Shown here piece after piece: positions 22,773 through 30,758 of a DNA stretch of 64,000 nt. Made by a program: the position numbers and the translations under genes. The DNA comes from Candidatus Thorarchaeota archaeon. Lineage in GTDB: Archaea > Asgardarchaeota > Thorarchaeia > Thorarchaeales > Thorarchaeaceae. The notes beneath the pieces were generated by a model, which did no database searches, was not told where the DNA came from, and worked only from the letters and a program-made list of their open reading frames with translations. Every line of letters begins with the position of its first letter. Positions within the stretch are counted from its first letter, which is position 1. The DNA is taken from positions 406,971-470,970 of the forward strand of contig SHMX01000003.1 in the NCBI GenBank assembly GCA_008080745.1, given 5' to 3'.

Positions 22773-23621
22773 TTATCTCTTGTTAGGTCTACTTCGACCA
22801 TAAAGACGACCTGACTCTTCCTCAGTCATCTTAAAGCTGTGTTCAGAAGAGGGGAACGATCCCTCTCTGACATCAGATGCGTATTCTGAAACAGCATCTC
22901 TGATTATTTTTCTAATATTGGTATATTTTTTAAGAAATTTTGGTTTGAAGTCCTCAAAAAGGCCTAACATATCCCAAAGTACTAGAACCTGTCCATCGCA
23001 ATAAGGCCCTGCTCCAATTCCTATAGTGGGAATATCTATAGATTCCGTTATCATTTTTGCTGATTCAGAAGGAACAAGTTCAATCACTATTGAGAAAGCG
23101 CCAGCATCTTCCAATGCCTTTGCCTGTTCAATCAATTCCTCAGTAGCATCGGCAGTTCGTCCCTGAACACGGTACCCACCAAATTCATAAACACTCTGAG
23201 GTGTCAACCCGATGTGGGCCATTACAGGAATCCCAGCATCAACGACCGCCTTGACAGTCTTGATGATATGCGAACTACCACCCTCGATTTTCACAGCCTC
23301 AGCTCCCCCATCCTGTAGCATCCTGCTGCAATTATGTAGAGCCTGTTCAATGCTGACTTTGTAGGTCATAAAAGGCATATCACCAACAATAAAGGAGTTG
23401 GGTTTAGCACGAGCTACCGCTGCACAGTGATGAATTACATCTTCTAATCGAACAGGAATAGTACTCTCATACCCAAGAAGAGAATTACCTACCGAATCGC
23501 CTACTAATATGATATCAATACCAGCATCACTAAGAATAGAGGCTGTAGGAGCATCATAGGCAGTTAGCATAACGATTTTCTTGCCTTTCTCCTTCATCTG
23601 ACGGATACGATGGGTTGTCAT
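22773..23621 (-). CDS. panB: 3-methyl-2-oxobutanoate hydroxymethyltransferase
   Basis: Transfers a hydroxymethyl group from methylene-tetrahydrofolate (or the archaeal pterin) to 2-oxoisovalerate, giving ketopantoate for coenzyme A. About 282 residues, as usual. Visible marks are the metal ligands in VGDSVG and VGDMPFMTY, the GAEAVKIEGG segment, VMAHIGLTPQSV and the C-terminal GIGAGPYCDGQVLV. The catalytic glutamate lies in VIELVPSE. I use the ATG at 23621; the upstream TTG at 23630 is possible. No other pantothenate gene is in the window. Confidence 0.95.
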   Translation of the reverse strand: MTTHRIRQMKEKGKKIVMLTAYDAPTASILSDAGIDIILVGDSVGNSLLGYESTIPVRLEDVIHHCAAVARAKPNSFIVGDMPFMTYKVSIEQALHNCSRMLQDGGAEAVKIEGGSSHIIKTVKAVVDAGIPVMAHIGLTPQSVYEFGGYRVQGRTADATEELIEQAKALEDAGAFSIVIELVPSESAKMITESIDIPTIGIGAGPYCDGQVLVLWDMLGLFEDFKPKFLKKYTNIRKIIRDAVSEYASDVREGSFPSSEHSFKMTEEESGRLYGRSRPNKR

Positions 23622-23711
23622 TCTAGCCAAAGTAATTCTCCAAGATATAGTGAGTAAATGGGACTATATATAGAATTTCTATGGCACATACGTATTCTAT
23701 GATTATTGCGA

Positions 23712-25667
23712 TTATCTCTTTCTACTTACCATAAAGACATCAGAACGTGGGACAAATGCACCTTTTAGAAACCTACGAAGAAGTTCGATCATTGCCCCAC
23801 GTCGTATTCCTTGTTCCTTAGCAAATGTTGTAACTGGTATAGCCCCGGATTCTTCGGTCATCTCATGCAATTTGAGTATCCAGTCACGTGTAACAATCAC
23901 CCCCGCTTTTGCAACAAATACATCCTCATCATCAAGCCGAGTTCTTATTCGACTGGATAGGTCTGAATAATCTACTCTTAGACGTCTTGAAGTAATCATG
24001 AGGTCATAGCTGCCTTTAGTATCCAGGGCCCATCTCATCAGACTGAAGATAGTATCAATAGAGATTAGGGTACCGGTTGTACTTACTAAGGCATCCAGTG
24101 AAAGACTACTGATAATCTGGCGTACATCCGAAGGATCGAGCATTCTTTCTCTGGCTTCTTTCCCCGGGTCCAAGACACCTTTTGCTGTAAAGATTTGTTT
24201 GAGTTCACGTTTTAGTTTGGATACGGGAACCAGTCCACCATTGGAATTCATGACAGCATCAGAATCAATCTGAGCTAATAGAGCCTGAGCAATACCGACC
24301 GTTATATTGTATTTCTCAACTAGAGTAGTAGGGTCGACCGACTCACCAGAATCTAATGAACATGTAATCTTCGTTCTTGCCCAAGAGATTGAAAGGTGGT
24401 CTCCCGATTTGTTGGATACCGTTCTCATTCCAAATTCCTTGAGTAGAATATTTAGAGTAGGATTAGTTATACCCCATTCATCCTCAACGGAATCTATAGA
24501 TATTATTCCATCCTCAGATATTTCATCTAGTAGCCAACGGCGGAATACTGCTGTTGATATGTATTTTCCACGTCCGATAGTTCTGGCATTTTCATTATTG
24601 CGAAGAATAGTTTCTACGATTCTTGCATCAATACCTAGATTGTCAGCTTCTTGGTGTACTTCTATTCTTCCTGTAAGGGTCAGATTATCTAATACGCGTT
24701 CTTTTAGATAATCGTAAGTCACGATAATTCCATCATCATCTACAAAGAATTTCTTTCCTGTCCTTCGAACAATTTTCATGAGTGCATCTTGATCTATACA
24801 CAGTTGTTTTGCCTCGGTAACGGGATTCAGATAACCCTCTGATTCAAGAAGGCATTCCAAACGATTAGCGACAATATGAACAGGAAGTAGTCTATGATCT
24901 GTTGTCTGTATAACAGACCAACCAAACCTCCTCATTGCCTCTATGATATCACGTTCGGTAACAGCCAATCTCATTGCCTCCATACTAGGCTCAATAAACC
25001 CACTTTTTTCCATTGAACGTTCTAATGTGCTCCTTAGCCAATCAGTAGAAACAAGAAATCCATTCCCCATTTCGATAAGATTCCAACCCCATCTCTCAAC
25101 CAAACGAACAAGATCGAAACGCTTTACATGAAGACGCTGAGCCTCTGAAGTGACATTGATTCGTCCTTGAAGACCAATGACTTCTCTCATGCGCTCCTTA
25201 AATTCAGGTACCAATATGTAATCGCCATCTTCGGTCTGAACAACATCTAAACCCTCTCGGTTTGTGATGACCGCCACTAAATTTTCTATGATAACTTCAG
25301 AGATGTCCCACATTGCAGATTCTTTTGCAACATGAATTACATGATTATCTACAAGGAGATTATGAAGACGTCTAATAAGCAAGGTTGACGATACTACAGA
25401 AGATTTGCTAAAACTCAGTATTGCATTTTCTGCGTGTCGTGCTGTGTAGATAACAGAGAGAATAGATATGTCCTTTCTGTCAAGTCTAGAGGTGAGTTCG
25501 GATACGGATAATGTCATATTAGTAGTTAGTAACTGCTCCAGCTTTCTGATACGTCGATTTCTTATCCTCTGAATCCAGAAGAAAACACCACCAATAAGGA
25601 TAAGAAAAAGAATTGCTGCTAGTACAAGGGATAGGATAACATCATTACCCAGTATCTGCACTAGCAT
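23712..25667 (-). CDS. Membrane-anchored tandem winged-helix protein, UFL1/DDRGK1-like
   Basis: 651 residues. One N-terminal span (about 10-32) with a basic RIRNRRIRK stop is followed by cytosolic repeats. From about residue 95 on I count nine or ten units of about 56 residues with a shared pattern: L...L...G.I....A..L.I......ii...g..v.....G.iv. Each looks like a winged helix. The unit DVVQTEDGDYILVPE then MREVIGLQGRINV follows the order of human UFL1 (VVHTLDGKEYITP, MRDELHVRGGRVNI). In eukaryotes DDRGK1 anchors UFL1 at the ER; this protein seems to combine both. It follows the P-type ATPase by 12 bases. Start is the ATG at 25667. Homology is inferred by eye. Confidence 0.7.
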   Translation of the reverse strand: MLVQILGNDVILSLVLAAILFLILIGGVFFWIQRIRNRRIRKLEQLLTTNMTLSVSELTSRLDRKDISILSVIYTARHAENAILSFSKSSVVSSTLLIRRLHNLLVDNHVIHVAKESAMWDISEVIIENLVAVITNREGLDVVQTEDGDYILVPEFKERMREVIGLQGRINVTSEAQRLHVKRFDLVRLVERWGWNLIEMGNGFLVSTDWLRSTLERSMEKSGFIEPSMEAMRLAVTERDIIEAMRRFGWSVIQTTDHRLLPVHIVANRLECLLESEGYLNPVTEAKQLCIDQDALMKIVRRTGKKFFVDDDGIIVTYDYLKERVLDNLTLTGRIEVHQEADNLGIDARIVETILRNNENARTIGRGKYISTAVFRRWLLDEISEDGIISIDSVEDEWGITNPTLNILLKEFGMRTVSNKSGDHLSISWARTKITCSLDSGESVDPTTLVEKYNITVGIAQALLAQIDSDAVMNSNGGLVPVSKLKRELKQIFTAKGVLDPGKEARERMLDPSDVRQIISSLSLDALVSTTGTLISIDTIFSLMRWALDTKGSYDLMITSRRLRVDYSDLSSRIRTRLDDEDVFVAKAGVIVTRDWILKLHEMTEESGAIPVTTFAKEQGIRRGAMIELLRRFLKGAFVPRSDVFMVSRKR

Positions 25668-25679
25668 CTTTCTATCCAA

Positions 25680-28607
25680 CTACAAGGTTTCTCCTTTATC
25701 TCTCAGACTCTTTTTGTACAGTTCTAGACCAACAATGGTTGGGGCTGCAAATAGAATACATATGAGCCAATCCATCCAGCTCAAAGGTATGAAGTAAAAG
25801 TGCAGTCCAAATGGAGCAAGTATGGCTTGTGCGATTGGAACATACATGAGTAATAGATGAGCTAGATAGATGAGTCCAAGCAATATGACATAGCGAATGA
25901 TTCCAGGTTCCAGAATTCCCTTTGTAACTGGCATATTGATTCTTCTGATTAGAAGAACGAGAGAGCTCTCCAGTAGCAAAATGACAGTCAGTAACATGGT
26001 CCGAGCCTTTGCAAATGGGTCGATTTCCATAAATGGTTGATTATTGATTGGATTTATCGCTTCGTGATAGAAACCACCATAATTGTCAATATTCATTGGA
26101 ATAATTTGCCAAAGTGTCATGGTAAATAATGCAGCTGCACCAATAACCATTAGAACAACGTTCAATGTCATAAATTTAGCTATCGGGCGAGTAATGATCT
26201 CTTGGCTATCACGCGGTTTCTCTTCCATGGCTCGTGGTGATGTCTTATCAAAGACCAATGCCAAACCAGGGAAGGAATGGGTGGTAACGACAAGATACAG
26301 GCTCTGCCATTGAGAGAGAAAGTTAATGATGTCCGGCATCAGGAACATAGCACCGAAGAAGATAATACTCTCAAACAGATTAATAGCGATATAGAAGTAT
26401 ATCATCATTCTAATTTTATTGAAAAGTCCTCGGCCTTGATGAACACCAGTCACAATTGATGCAAAACTATCATCGGTAATAACCAGGTCAGCAGCTTCCT
26501 TAGCAACATCTGTACCAGTTATACCCATGGCAATTCCTGCATCACTCATGGCCAAGGCAAGAGCGTCATTTACTCCATCACCAGTCATTGCAACAACTTT
26601 TCCATCGTCTTGGTATCGTTCTACAATGACCTGTTTGTGTTCAGGGTTAACTCTAGCAAAAACATTGACACGGAGGAAATTATCATTACTAAGAGATTCT
26701 ATCTCTCCTCCTTCAATAGCTAAAGAGTCCGGTCCGTAGATGTTGAGATTACGAGCAATTGTTTTTGCTGTGGCTGCTGCGTCCCCTGTAATCATAATAA
26801 CATTGATACCAGCACTGTGACAGGCGTTTACAGCCTCTTTTACACCATCACGTGGTGGATCAACAATACAAGTAAAACCAAGATATACAAGATTGGATTC
26901 AACATCATCACGGTTTGTATCACTGCTGGCAGAGTTCATCTCCTTCTTAGCAAGAGAAATAACTCGATATCCCTCTTCAGCATATTTGGTTGTAATTTCT
27001 CTGATTTTTTCAATATCTGCCTGAGACATTTTTCGTTCGTTAGCGTTCCCTCCAATTTTGGTGCATCTTGGCAGCAAGACTTCGGTCGCACCCTTAACAA
27101 ATGCGACATATTTGCCATCTGCCTCACACACTTTGGACATACGTTTGAGTTCTGATTCGAACGGATACTCCGCAATGATTTTGTATTTCTCTTTTACCTC
27201 AGCTTCGTCAATTCCGCTTTTTCTGAAAAAGGTGAGTAGTGCAGCGTCCGTTGGATCTCCAAGGGGCTTCCAATCGATTCCTTGACCAGGTAGTTCCTTC
27301 TTTACTATCTCAGCATCATTATTGACACCCGCACATAATAGCATCTGATAGAGGCCTTTCCAAGCATATACATCACTTACAAGTACTGAGTCTGCTTCGC
27401 TAGGATTTTTCATGAATGATTCATCTTTCATCCTATACAATTCACCTTCAGGGACGTATCCTGCACCAGATATTGTATAGAGATTTTCAGAATCCCAAGC
27501 GATGGTGACGGTCATTTGATTCCGGGTCATGGTACCCGTCTTATCACTACAAATAATGCTTACACGACCTAAACTCTCAACAGCTGAGAGATCACGAATA
27601 ATGACTCCTTTCTTAGCCATTGCAAGCACTCCAGTAAGAAGAACAATGGTGGTAAGCAAAGGAATATTGATGGGCATGATAGTCATAGCTTTTGTAATCC
27701 CAGATGTCAATGCTGCAGTCAATGATGGTGCTTCAAGTCCGGGATATATGAAAGGTGCAATAATCAAGACCCATAGCACTGATGTAGCCATTAAGCCAAT
27801 CGAGGCAATTCCCAAAAATTTCGCTAGAAGGTTTACCTTCTTCCGTAATGGAATATCACCTGTGTTCAATGACTCTAGAGTACCTTGGATTTTACCAATC
27901 TCTGTATGCCCACCGGTTGTGGTTGCGACTGCTTTTGCAGTACCAGTAGCTACATAGGTGCCAAAGAAGACCATATTGCGCATATCAGTAAGAGGGACAT
28001 CCTCTGATACTTTTACATCGCTATTTTTGGTAACAGGAACACTTTCTCCTGTTAGAGAAGCCTCATTTGCTGTGAAATTAGAACATTGAATAATTCTTCC
28101 ATCAACAGGAATCTTATCACCCTGCTCTAAAATGAGAATATCACCAGGGACAATTTCATGTGGTTCAATCTTCATCTGATGCCCGTCACGGATGACTCTC
28201 GATTCGCCTGCAGAAAGTTTCTCCAACGCCTCAAGTTTCTTTTGTGCTCGAAATTGTTGAAAGATTGCAACAATGCAGTTGACTCCAACGACAGCCAGCC
28301 ATACAGCTGCTTGAGCAAGCTGATTGCTTTCAGTTGGTGGAGCTGTAACAGCGAGGATAATCAAAGCTATAGAGCTTAAAAGATAGATATTGATAAGCCA
28401 ATTCAGAATTGGAGCAAGGTACACCTTCCAAAAAGATCCCTTAATTTTAGGAATGATATTTGGACCATACTCTTTTTGCCGGTCCTTCACTTGTTGTGCA
28501 GAGAGTCCAGTATTAGGATCGGTGTCTAATTTTCGAAAAGTTTCATCGAGACTAAGAGCATGGAATTCTTCGCCATGACTGTTGGTGGATTTTTCCTCAG
28601 TAATCAT
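25680..28607 (-). CDS. P-type (P2-like) cation-transporting ATPase
   Basis: 975 residues, ten spans. It has the N-terminal cation-ATPase domain, the actuator LTGES, the phosphorylation motif CSDKTGTMT (D about 354), the nucleotide domain, and MTGDGVNDALAL. The fold order is that of calcium or proton pumps. Span four has PINIP where SERCA-type pumps have PEGLP, so the glutamate that binds calcium is absent and the ion is uncertain. The ATG at 28607 follows GAGGG at a good distance; an earlier ATG at 28646 is weaker. It is the first gene of an operon with the winged-helix protein. Confidence 0.92.
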   Translation of the reverse strand: MITEEKSTNSHGEEFHALSLDETFRKLDTDPNTGLSAQQVKDRQKEYGPNIIPKIKGSFWKVYLAPILNWLINIYLLSSIALIILAVTAPPTESNQLAQAAVWLAVVGVNCIVAIFQQFRAQKKLEALEKLSAGESRVIRDGHQMKIEPHEIVPGDILILEQGDKIPVDGRIIQCSNFTANEASLTGESVPVTKNSDVKVSEDVPLTDMRNMVFFGTYVATGTAKAVATTTGGHTEIGKIQGTLESLNTGDIPLRKKVNLLAKFLGIASIGLMATSVLWVLIIAPFIYPGLEAPSLTAALTSGITKAMTIMPINIPLLTTIVLLTGVLAMAKKGVIIRDLSAVESLGRVSIICSDKTGTMTRNQMTVTIAWDSENLYTISGAGYVPEGELYRMKDESFMKNPSEADSVLVSDVYAWKGLYQMLLCAGVNNDAEIVKKELPGQGIDWKPLGDPTDAALLTFFRKSGIDEAEVKEKYKIIAEYPFESELKRMSKVCEADGKYVAFVKGATEVLLPRCTKIGGNANERKMSQADIEKIREITTKYAEEGYRVISLAKKEMNSASSDTNRDDVESNLVYLGFTCIVDPPRDGVKEAVNACHSAGINVIMITGDAAATAKTIARNLNIYGPDSLAIEGGEIESLSNDNFLRVNVFARVNPEHKQVIVERYQDDGKVVAMTGDGVNDALALAMSDAGIAMGITGTDVAKEAADLVITDDSFASIVTGVHQGRGLFNKIRMMIYFYIAINLFESIIFFGAMFLMPDIINFLSQWQSLYLVVTTHSFPGLALVFDKTSPRAMEEKPRDSQEIITRPIAKFMTLNVVLMVIGAAALFTMTLWQIIPMNIDNYGGFYHEAINPINNQPFMEIDPFAKARTMLLTVILLLESSLVLLIRRINMPVTKGILEPGIIRYVILLGLIYLAHLLLMYVPIAQAILAPFGLHFYFIPLSWMDWLICILFAAPTIVGLELYKKSLRDKGETL

Positions 28608-28790: not shown

Positions 28791-30758
28791 ATGTCAAATT
28801 ATTGGGATTATGAACAACCAATTGCACATTCTTCTTCGACAAGTGGAAAAAAAATAGCTGGTGCATTGATTATTGTAATGTTAGTACTGTCCACAGGAAT
28901 TGTAGTCCTGCTAGGTATGTTTGAAGGGTTTCAATTCACCAGAGAGTCAGATGTGAGAGTTGCTGTGCTTGATACTGGAATTGATGCAGATTTCACAATG
29001 CAGAGTTCAATTGTTGCAGAAAAGAGTTTCATAAACCCAGAAAATGGATACTCATATACTGATACAACAACAGATGATAGCAATCCTGAAGGTTCGCCTC
29101 ATGGAACAATTGTTGCAAAAGCAGTTCTAGAAGAATTCCCAGCCGCAAAAATCCTCAATGGAAAAATAATGAATAACGAAGGAACTGCTACGACATTGGG
29201 AGTTATTGCAGGGATAAAGTGGGCAATCGAGCAAAATTGCAGCGTAATTAATCTGAGTCTAGGCTCTAGTCCCTCGTATAATGATAGCTTGGAAGAAACT
29301 ATCAATTGGGCATTTAATCAGGGTATAGTTATTGTAGCATCAGGAGGTAACGAGGGTGAAGAGGGTCTTAGCGGAACAAGTATTTCTTCTCCAAGTGTGT
29401 TTGAAAGATGTGTTTCCGTTGCGGGCATGGATAGAGATGGCACCCCAGCCGGTTTTACCAGCCATGGTCCAACTGGTTCGTTCTATATGAAACCCGATAT
29501 TGCTGCCCCAGGATATGTTCAGTCAGGCTCATACATTTATTTCGGAACAAGTTTTGCATCTCCCAGAGTTGCAGGCGGTGTTGCGGATATTATCGATTAT
29601 TGTATCAACAATGAGATAGATTATTCACCGGGAATGATCATTGCTGCTCTATTAGAAGGAGCAAGACAATTAGAATATCCAGAGTACATTGTTGGAGCAG
29701 GAGCAATGAGTATTGCTCAGTCAAAACTGTTAATCTCGGATGCCAATGATGGGACCGGAATTCCAAACATTGCTTACGCACATCCTAGTTATTTGCCAAT
29801 TGAATATGAGAAATTATTCTATGGAGACAGGTATCAGTTCAAGATTCATCTCTTCTGTGGAGGGGTAGGAACATTTGATGTGGATGTATACAGTACAACT
29901 CCTGAAGTGTTTGATATCACCGAAACTGTGAACATCAATCAATCAACACTTGTAGATCTAATGATTGAGGCCCCTAGCTCAGGAAACCCTGAGATTGATG
30001 CAAATATCGGATTTTGGTCTTCTGATTTAGGAATGGCTAATTTATCCATTAGTTTCTCGTTAACAGACCCGGTTGCAAGAGTTGCCTTCGATAATACACA
30101 TACAACATGGGATATCGACACAAAATACGGCCAATTCAGAGAATTCTACAAAAAATTGGTAGGAAATTCAATATCAGTTGAACATATCACTGACAGAGCA
30201 GACATCACTCTGAGTAACTTTAATCGATACGATGGCATCATAATGTTAGACCCATGTGCATGGGATGTAGACGATTCAGATGCCACAAGCCGCTTTTTGT
30301 TCTCCATACCTTTCACACCAGACGAGATTCAAGTATATCAGGACTACTATGAGAATGGTGGCGGGTTATTCATTTCTGCTTTATCAAACGAAAGTTTGGA
30401 TATTTCAAGCCTCAATGACTTTCTGGATTGGGCAGGATTGGAACTAGCTAGCGATAAACTCCCAGGAGCAGATGCTGTTGCAGAGGTGTCAAATCTGGCG
30501 AATCATGATATAACAGATGGAGTAGACTCCTTCGATTTTGTGGGTGCACCATTTTCAGCATCAGGAACTGCAACCGTACTAGCAACCCTGCAGAGCAGAG
30601 CAGTCCTAGTGAGTAACACACATTCCTCAGGTGGAAGGATGGTGGTTACAGGTACCAATTTCTTCATTGATAATTGGGGAATGTTGGGAGAATATAATTC
30701 GAATGATAATGATATTTTAGCTCTACAAGTGATTCAATGGATAACGGGACTAATTTAG
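28791..30758 (+). CDS. Membrane-anchored subtilisin-like protease with GATase/ThuA-like C-terminal domain
   Basis: 655 residues. A signal anchor (about 20-43) precedes an S8 peptidase (about 55-320) with the triad D61 (DTGID), H104 (HGT) and S254 (GTSFASP), and the oxyanion asparagine near 187 (SGGNEG). A linker of beta strands (about 335-425) follows. The last 230 residues show strand-helix alternation with YDGIIMLDPC, YYENGGGLFISALS and RMVVTGTNFF, which suggests a type-1 glutamine amidotransferase or ThuA-like fold without an obvious active site. No propeptide is evident. The start follows GAGGT. Confidence 0.88.
   Translation: MSNYWDYEQPIAHSSSTSGKKIAGALIIVMLVLSTGIVVLLGMFEGFQFTRESDVRVAVLDTGIDADFTMQSSIVAEKSFINPENGYSYTDTTTDDSNPEGSPHGTIVAKAVLEEFPAAKILNGKIMNNEGTATTLGVIAGIKWAIEQNCSVINLSLGSSPSYNDSLEETINWAFNQGIVIVASGGNEGEEGLSGTSISSPSVFERCVSVAGMDRDGTPAGFTSHGPTGSFYMKPDIAAPGYVQSGSYIYFGTSFASPRVAGGVADIIDYCINNEIDYSPGMIIAALLEGARQLEYPEYIVGAGAMSIAQSKLLISDANDGTGIPNIAYAHPSYLPIEYEKLFYGDRYQFKIHLFCGGVGTFDVDVYSTTPEVFDITETVNINQSTLVDLMIEAPSSGNPEIDANIGFWSSDLGMANLSISFSLTDPVARVAFDNTHTTWDIDTKYGQFREFYKKLVGNSISVEHITDRADITLSNFNRYDGIIMLDPCAWDVDDSDATSRFLFSIPFTPDEIQVYQDYYENGGGLFISALSNESLDISSLNDFLDWAGLELASDKLPGADAVAEVSNLANHDITDGVDSFDFVGAPFSASGTATVLATLQSRAVLVSNTHSSGGRMVVTGTNFFIDNWGMLGEYNSNDNDILALQVIQWITGLI

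Follow-up and report, generated by a model that had tools for sequence, protein, structure and literature searches.

A membrane-anchored tandem winged-helix protein related to UFL1 in an Asgard archaeal lineage without detectable UFM1

We analysed a 64,000-nucleotide stretch of a Candidatus Thorarchaeota archaeon contig (hereafter the window), in which three minus-strand genes follow one another, coding for a P-type ATPase, a putative membrane-anchored tandem winged-helix (WH) protein and PanB (Table 1). The WH gene starts with an ATG at 25667 and ends with a stop codon at 23712-23714, while the ATPase stop codon lies at 25680-25682, and these coordinates confirm the gap of 12 bases given in the preliminary description of the locus. 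An in-frame TTG at 25679, upstream of this ATG, is less likely to be the start of the WH gene, because the frame of the nearest relative opens just one codon before the same MLVQ. The nearest named relative of the protein, 68% identical, was found in a metagenome-assembled genome labelled Candidatus Lokiarchaeota archaeon isolate RBin_111. The ATPase is nearest by sequence to the Ca2+ pumps LMCA1, SPCA and SERCA. Ca2+ pumps carry the motif PEGLP in M4 and usually N..TD in M6; in the window ATPase the M4 motif reads PINIP and the M6 region is without the usual N..TD, as read from its sequence. Divergent from the ATPase in direction lies a putative subtilisin-like protease (28791-30758, plus strand) with an N-terminal membrane span by inspection, the place of which is conserved across the family.

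Table 1 Features of the ATPase-WH-panB locus, with positions in the window and residues of the WH protein.
Feature	Length or residues	Positions	Strand	Remarks
P-type ATPase	975 aa	25680..28607	minus	lies upstream; 12 bases separate it from the WH start
Membrane-anchored tandem WH protein	651 aa	23712..25667	minus	stop included
Single N-terminal membrane span	10-31	25575..25640	minus	hydrophobicity and charge from sequence; one helix 8-51 in the model
U0, putative degenerate unit	35-93	25389..25565	minus	fails shuffle test; pLDDT <50; unproven
U1, winged helix	94-153	25209..25388	minus	alignment of the second half with the beginning of the UFL1 portion of the composite winged helix
U2, winged helix	154-207	25047..25208	minus	aligned with the first complete winged helix of UFL1
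U3, winged helix	208-262	24882..25046	minus	HMM shuffle test and model
U4, winged helix	263-317	24717..24881	minus	HMM shuffle test and model
U5, winged helix	318-371	24555..24716	minus	HMM shuffle test and model
U6, winged helix	372-426	24390..24554	minus	HMM shuffle test and model
U7, winged helix	427-481	24225..24389	minus	HMM shuffle test and model
U8, winged helix	482-536	24060..24224	minus	HMM shuffle test, model and C-terminal slice search
U9, winged helix by model only	537-593	23889..24059	minus	fails sequence shuffle test
U10, winged helix	594-651	23715..23888	minus	shuffle test and model; basic in all members
panB (ketopantoate hydroxymethyltransferase)		22773..23630	minus	downstream neighbour; directly adjacent to the ATPase in genomes without the WH gene

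The membrane span of the WH protein is followed by the strongly basic stretch RIRNRRIRK, which, by the positive-inside rule, suggests that the repeats face the cytoplasm. The repeat units comprise 54-60 aa each (about 55 aa). In a leave-one-unit-out test, in which the HMM for a given unit was trained on the remaining units of the family members and scored against 1000 shuffles of that unit, U1-U8 and U10 each outscored all 1000 shuffles, and U9 and the putative U0 did not. The full-length AlphaFold model, computed from an alignment of two sequences only (mean pLDDT 73.9), has a helix-helix-helix-hairpin in each of ten units between residues 93 and 646, including U9. The pLDDT is about 80-90 from residue 210 onwards, and residues 39-124, at less than 50, are unreliable. 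A second model of U1-U2, for which the other unit pairs (aligned as non-overlapping pairs) served as alignment, gave two winged helices with a pLDDT of 88.7. The window protein is accordingly predicted from sequence and models to consist of ten winged-helix units, an eleventh, N-terminal unit (U0) being unproven. Repeat statistics, the span and the model hence agree with the architecture described previously, i.e., one N-terminal span followed by tandem units, and ten is the better figure for what had been given as nine or ten units of about 56 residues.

Among solved proteins, the closest relative of the window protein is UFL1. The Pfam model E3_UFM1_ligase (PF09743) matched the whole protein with 25.7 bits (curated cut-off 23.2, E 1.1e-5) and matched 11 out of 12 family members at E <=1, not all of them above the cut-off, with a best E of 6e-12. 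On the raw genome of the window the same model reached just 17.5 bits for one fragment, with no match at E 0.001, and the whole-protein score was taken as the valid one. When the N-terminal thirds were compared with PF09743, nine out of ten members matched, each weakly and all in one register, which places the second half of U1 together with U2 on the first 80-150 positions of PF09743. Furthermore, searching the family profile against all 177,635 PDB sequences returned the human DDRGK1-UFL1 chimera 8b9x as the sole significant match (E 1.3e-7), the runner-up being eS25 (E 0.15), and the single window sequence, used instead of the profile, gave no match in the PDB. Profiles of the N-terminal slice (residues 35-262, E 9e-8) and the C-terminal slice (427-651, E 7e-6) retrieved UFL1 chains first, and the profile of the middle slice (263-481) did not. 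The human UFL1 strings VVHTLDGkEYI and MRDELHVRgGRVNI, which one unit pair had been described to follow closely, belong to chain 8b9x and align there where claimed.

The fold searches point in the same direction. With the full model, Foldseek placed ribosome-bound UFL1 at the top (E 2e-13 to 6e-11) and the chimera second (1e-8, TM 0.63 on 8b9x_A), the first unrelated fold being SelB (E 1e-3), and with the U1-U2 model UFL1 and the chimera were again on top (9e-5), with a narrower margin to SelB (8e-4). The winged-helix tandems of the SelB C-terminus and of ESCRT-II are likewise tandem WH folds, yet as weaker structural matches their E-values for the full model are many orders of magnitude weaker than those of UFL1, and neither has a sequence-profile match. 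Considering that the PF09743, PDB profile and fold searches agree and that none points to another winged-helix family, we take the kinship to UFL1 as real. Because U1-U2 and U8-U10 both resemble one and the same UFL1 stretch, so that the register is not unique, this link is best described as kinship of the repeat class, and unit-by-unit orthology is not claimed.

UFL1 (PF09743) and the window protein thus share a predicted tandem winged-helix solenoid and differ in size and equipment, with a partial and five full units in UFL1 compared to ten units here. The window protein has its own membrane span, and its UFL1 matches start at UFL1 residue 26 (8ohd_A 26-90). The N-terminal helix of UFL1 (residues 1-25) has no counterpart, as the window chain instead runs on into U1 and the span, and neither has the C-terminal helical region with its PTC loop, as the chain ends after U10, with winged helices up to residue 646. 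In UFL1, the C-terminal helical region makes tRNA-site contacts on the ribosome.

DDRGK1 combines an N-terminal ER anchor with a winged helix and holds the tandem-WH protein UFL1 at the ER for UFM1 ligation. DDRGK1 (UFBP1, PF09756) resembles the window protein in having an N-terminal span and then winged helices toward the cytoplasm, an orientation that is predicted for the latter, and U0 occupies the position where a DDRGK1 winged helix would lie. However, the Pfam DDRGK model, which also matches in E. coli and other control genomes, had no match in the window protein at E up to 10 and none among the 12 family members, and the DDRGK1 part of 8b9x reached 3-4 bits against the family and N-terminal slice profiles, away from U0. 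Moreover, the window protein has no long helical region, and for U0, which is not aligned and modelled with low confidence, a winged helix is unproven. We rejected a DDRGK1 domain in this protein because the profile does not match and DDRGK1 aligns with the N-terminal slice at 4 bits and not at U0, and as far as its sequence tells, the likeness to DDRGK1 is probably one of topology only, kinship by sequence not being shown. Of the UFL1/DDRGK1 likeness claimed in the preliminary description, the UFL1 part therefore stands, with matching profiles, modelled winged helices and UFL1 as the top fold, whereas the DDRGK1 part is reduced to topology. The further claim that the window protein is a one-protein version of the UFL1-DDRGK1 scaffold is not supported, considering the missing DDRGK match and the low-confidence U0; another Asgard protein, described below, fits it better.

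Profile searches for UFM1 gave no match in 228 Asgard genomes and those for UFC1 none in the family of the window protein, bearing in mind that very divergent members can escape profiles. Whereas the preliminary description had noted the absence of both from the window, searches of its whole genome were negative as well, and the UQ_con profile had no match in this genome, the controls likewise giving none. UFC1-like E2 matches were obtained in 16 out of 228 Asgard genomes (L146, L147 and others), none of them in the family of the window. Considering the lack of UFM1 and UFC1 matches and of both the N-terminal helix and the C-terminal helical region of UFL1, the window protein is, by its sequence, presumably not a UFM1 ligase as known. 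Alternatively, it might be a true E3-like ligase for an unrecognised ubiquitin-like modifier, a reading favoured by its relationship with the minimal E3 part of UFL1 and by the UFC1-like E2 matches in other Asgard genomes; we regard it as very improbable, since the UFM1 and UFC1 searches were negative as stated and the UFL1 match starts only after the N-terminal helix of UFL1.

A related protein fits the idea of a single-chain scaffold better. In most genomes of a large Asgard family, probably lokiarchaeal (group f20), we found a soluble tandem-WH protein of ~790 aa (L090:6649-9011 (-), L096:6658-9027 (+), L098:7198-9549 (+), plus orthologues), whose N-terminus is rich in cysteines, with zinc ribbons as judged by inspection. 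Some five winged helices follow, then an appendage-like region, and the protein ends in Vps28-C. One and the same chain has matches to UFL1 (E 1.6e-20) and to DDRGK (E 4e-15). Against the human chimera, the f20 profile aligned without interruption (columns 139-339 on chain 14-220, 54.7 bits, E 5.8e-14), beginning in the DDRGK1 winged helix, crossing the composite one and reaching into UFL1, compared to 26.1 bits for DDRGK1 alone and 22.5 bits for UFL1 alone. In the human complex, a partial winged helix of DDRGK1 and a partial winged helix of UFL1 complete one another (PMC9627666), and a split as the origin of the eukaryotic pair would lead one to expect a single archaeal chain spanning both. 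Judged by its sequence, the f20 protein may correspond, in one chain, to the eukaryotic heterodimer; as a finding it is arguably stronger than the window protein itself. Like the latter it is an Asgard tandem-WH protein related to UFL1, found by the profile of the window family with an E of about 1e-9, but it is soluble, has about five winged helices and extra domains, and its UFL1 and DDRGK matches are much stronger. HMM-HMM comparison was discarded as a route to orthology between both proteins, since several shifted registers scored alike (E 3e-7 to 1e-3), with none of them unique. Also rejected was the presence of f20-type proteins inside the window family, as the profile found mostly the appendage region (positions 430-650) and not the WH part.

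The Vps28-C domain raises the question of a part in membrane trafficking, i.e., a WH scaffold of the ESCRT-II kind or similar. ESCRT-II subunits are winged-helix pairs, ESCRT-II is among the weak fold matches of the window protein, its lokiarchaeal-type relative ends in Vps28-C, and many Asgard proteins join Vps28-C with an appendage domain (PMC10936438; the main text of that description does not mention UFL1). With the full model, however, the ESCRT-II matches lie about eleven orders of magnitude below UFL1, the EAP30 profile matched one out of 12 members below significance (E 0.024), and no ESCRT gene was found adjoining the WH gene, so that we consider an ESCRT-like function unlikely.

Strong matches to the WH protein were found in 13 genomes from six genera, all within one taxonomic family. 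In 13 out of 13 genomes the WH gene is located directly downstream of the orthologous ATPase, with panB next wherever the contig continues, whereas in 16 other genomes of the family panB comes directly after the same ATPase (about 62-68% identical) and the WH gene is missing, i.e., a clean presence or absence between ATPase and panB (loci L130-L145 versus L078-L088). In a tree of ATPase and PanB (FastTree, midpoint root, some nodes weak), genomes with the WH gene occur scattered in both deep branches, and the site never differs. The simplest account is that the gene was present once ancestrally and was lost about six times; repeated insertion at the same point is less simple.

This pattern bears directly on the ATPase, which had been put forward as a meaningful partner in one operon with the WH gene. 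Its place next to the WH gene is conserved in all 13 genomes having the latter; the partnership is not supported, as the 16 relatives retain ATPase and panB without it at the same site. The ATPase does not need the WH protein and is probably not its partner, and the partnership was rejected as the main reading; the neighbourhood is explained more simply as inherited gene order than as a functional pair. A regulatory or anchoring subunit of the upstream pump, which the invariable downstream position of the WH gene and the short distance in the window would suit, is for the same reason improbable, all the more since the flanking genes are conserved too, so that a shared order is expected, and since the divergence of the WH protein greatly outpaces that of the ATPase (31-40% versus about 64% identity between genera). 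The repeated clean losses of the WH gene are a warning against inferring function from the neighbouring pump.

Loss of the WH gene beside a retained ATPase also argues against a membrane-tethered transcription regulator, whose winged helices would bind DNA at the membrane and control, e.g., the ATPase operon. The winged helix is a common DNA-binding fold, single units weakly match HTH families and U10 is basic in all members, but, averaged, U1-U9 range from acidic to near neutral, and no DNA-binding protein tops any profile or fold search, which leaves such a regulator with little likelihood. Overall, regulator, trafficking scaffold, pump subunit and ligase are all ranked below a docking scaffold.

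UFL1-DDRGK1 holds 60S ribosomes at the ER. By analogy, we favour with moderate confidence the reading of the window protein as a docking scaffold that is tethered to the membrane, works independently of UFM1 and is built as a single-chain WH solenoid related to UFL1. Topology, scaffold function and partner are what we infer from the features given above: the N-terminal span would hold the protein in the cell membrane, the ten winged helices would reach into the cytoplasm and offer other proteins a long binding surface that is mostly acidic, and a large cytoplasmic partner complex would be held at the membrane without UFM1 conjugation, as UFL1-DDRGK1 does with 60S. The ligand may be the ribosome, with ribosome or translocon as our favoured guess; the analogy is with UFL1, where almost all ribosome contacts of the winged helices are with ribosomal proteins rather than rRNA (PMC10937380), and a UFM1-independent ancestral role has been proposed earlier (PMC10183829). 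The docking scaffold is supported by the acidic or near-neutral U1-U9, the kinship to UFL1 and the lack of UFM1 matches in the lineage, and weakened by the non-unique register, the missing ribosome-contacting C-terminal region of UFL1 and the dispensability of the gene, which was lost about six times.

The Asgard origin of UFL1 and DDRGK1 has already been published (EMBO J 2023). In a literature search outside subscription papers and preprints, we found no description of a membrane-anchored ten-unit version, of the continuity of DDRGK1 and UFL1 in a single chain or of the loss pattern of the WH gene. The presence of a UFL1-related protein in a lineage without detectable UFM1, which sets it apart from UFL1, suggests that the scaffold existed before the UFM1 tagging pathway that it now serves in eukaryotes; in the assembly of this pathway, the E3 scaffold thus seems to predate the tag. 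The window protein offers a concrete case for testing the first role of this scaffold, be it the holding of ribosomes at the membrane or another one. The unbroken alignment of the f20 protein over the DDRGK1-UFL1 junction, taken together with the window protein, points to a simple way in which the composite winged helix may have originated. More tentatively, and with doubt prevailing, we suggest that the Asgard DDRGK1-UFL1 scaffold is one polypeptide, that the eukaryotic heterodimer and its composite winged helix came from a split inside one unit, and that the window protein is a membrane-anchored branch docking ribosomes or translocons without UFM1. Two other Asgard tandem-WH proteins of the window family (L089:10179-12047 (G193) and L016 (G206)) have a C-terminal appendage-like and zinc-ribbon-like part, and the protein of G193 begins with hydrophobic spans; they may connect the window type with the lokiarchaeal one.
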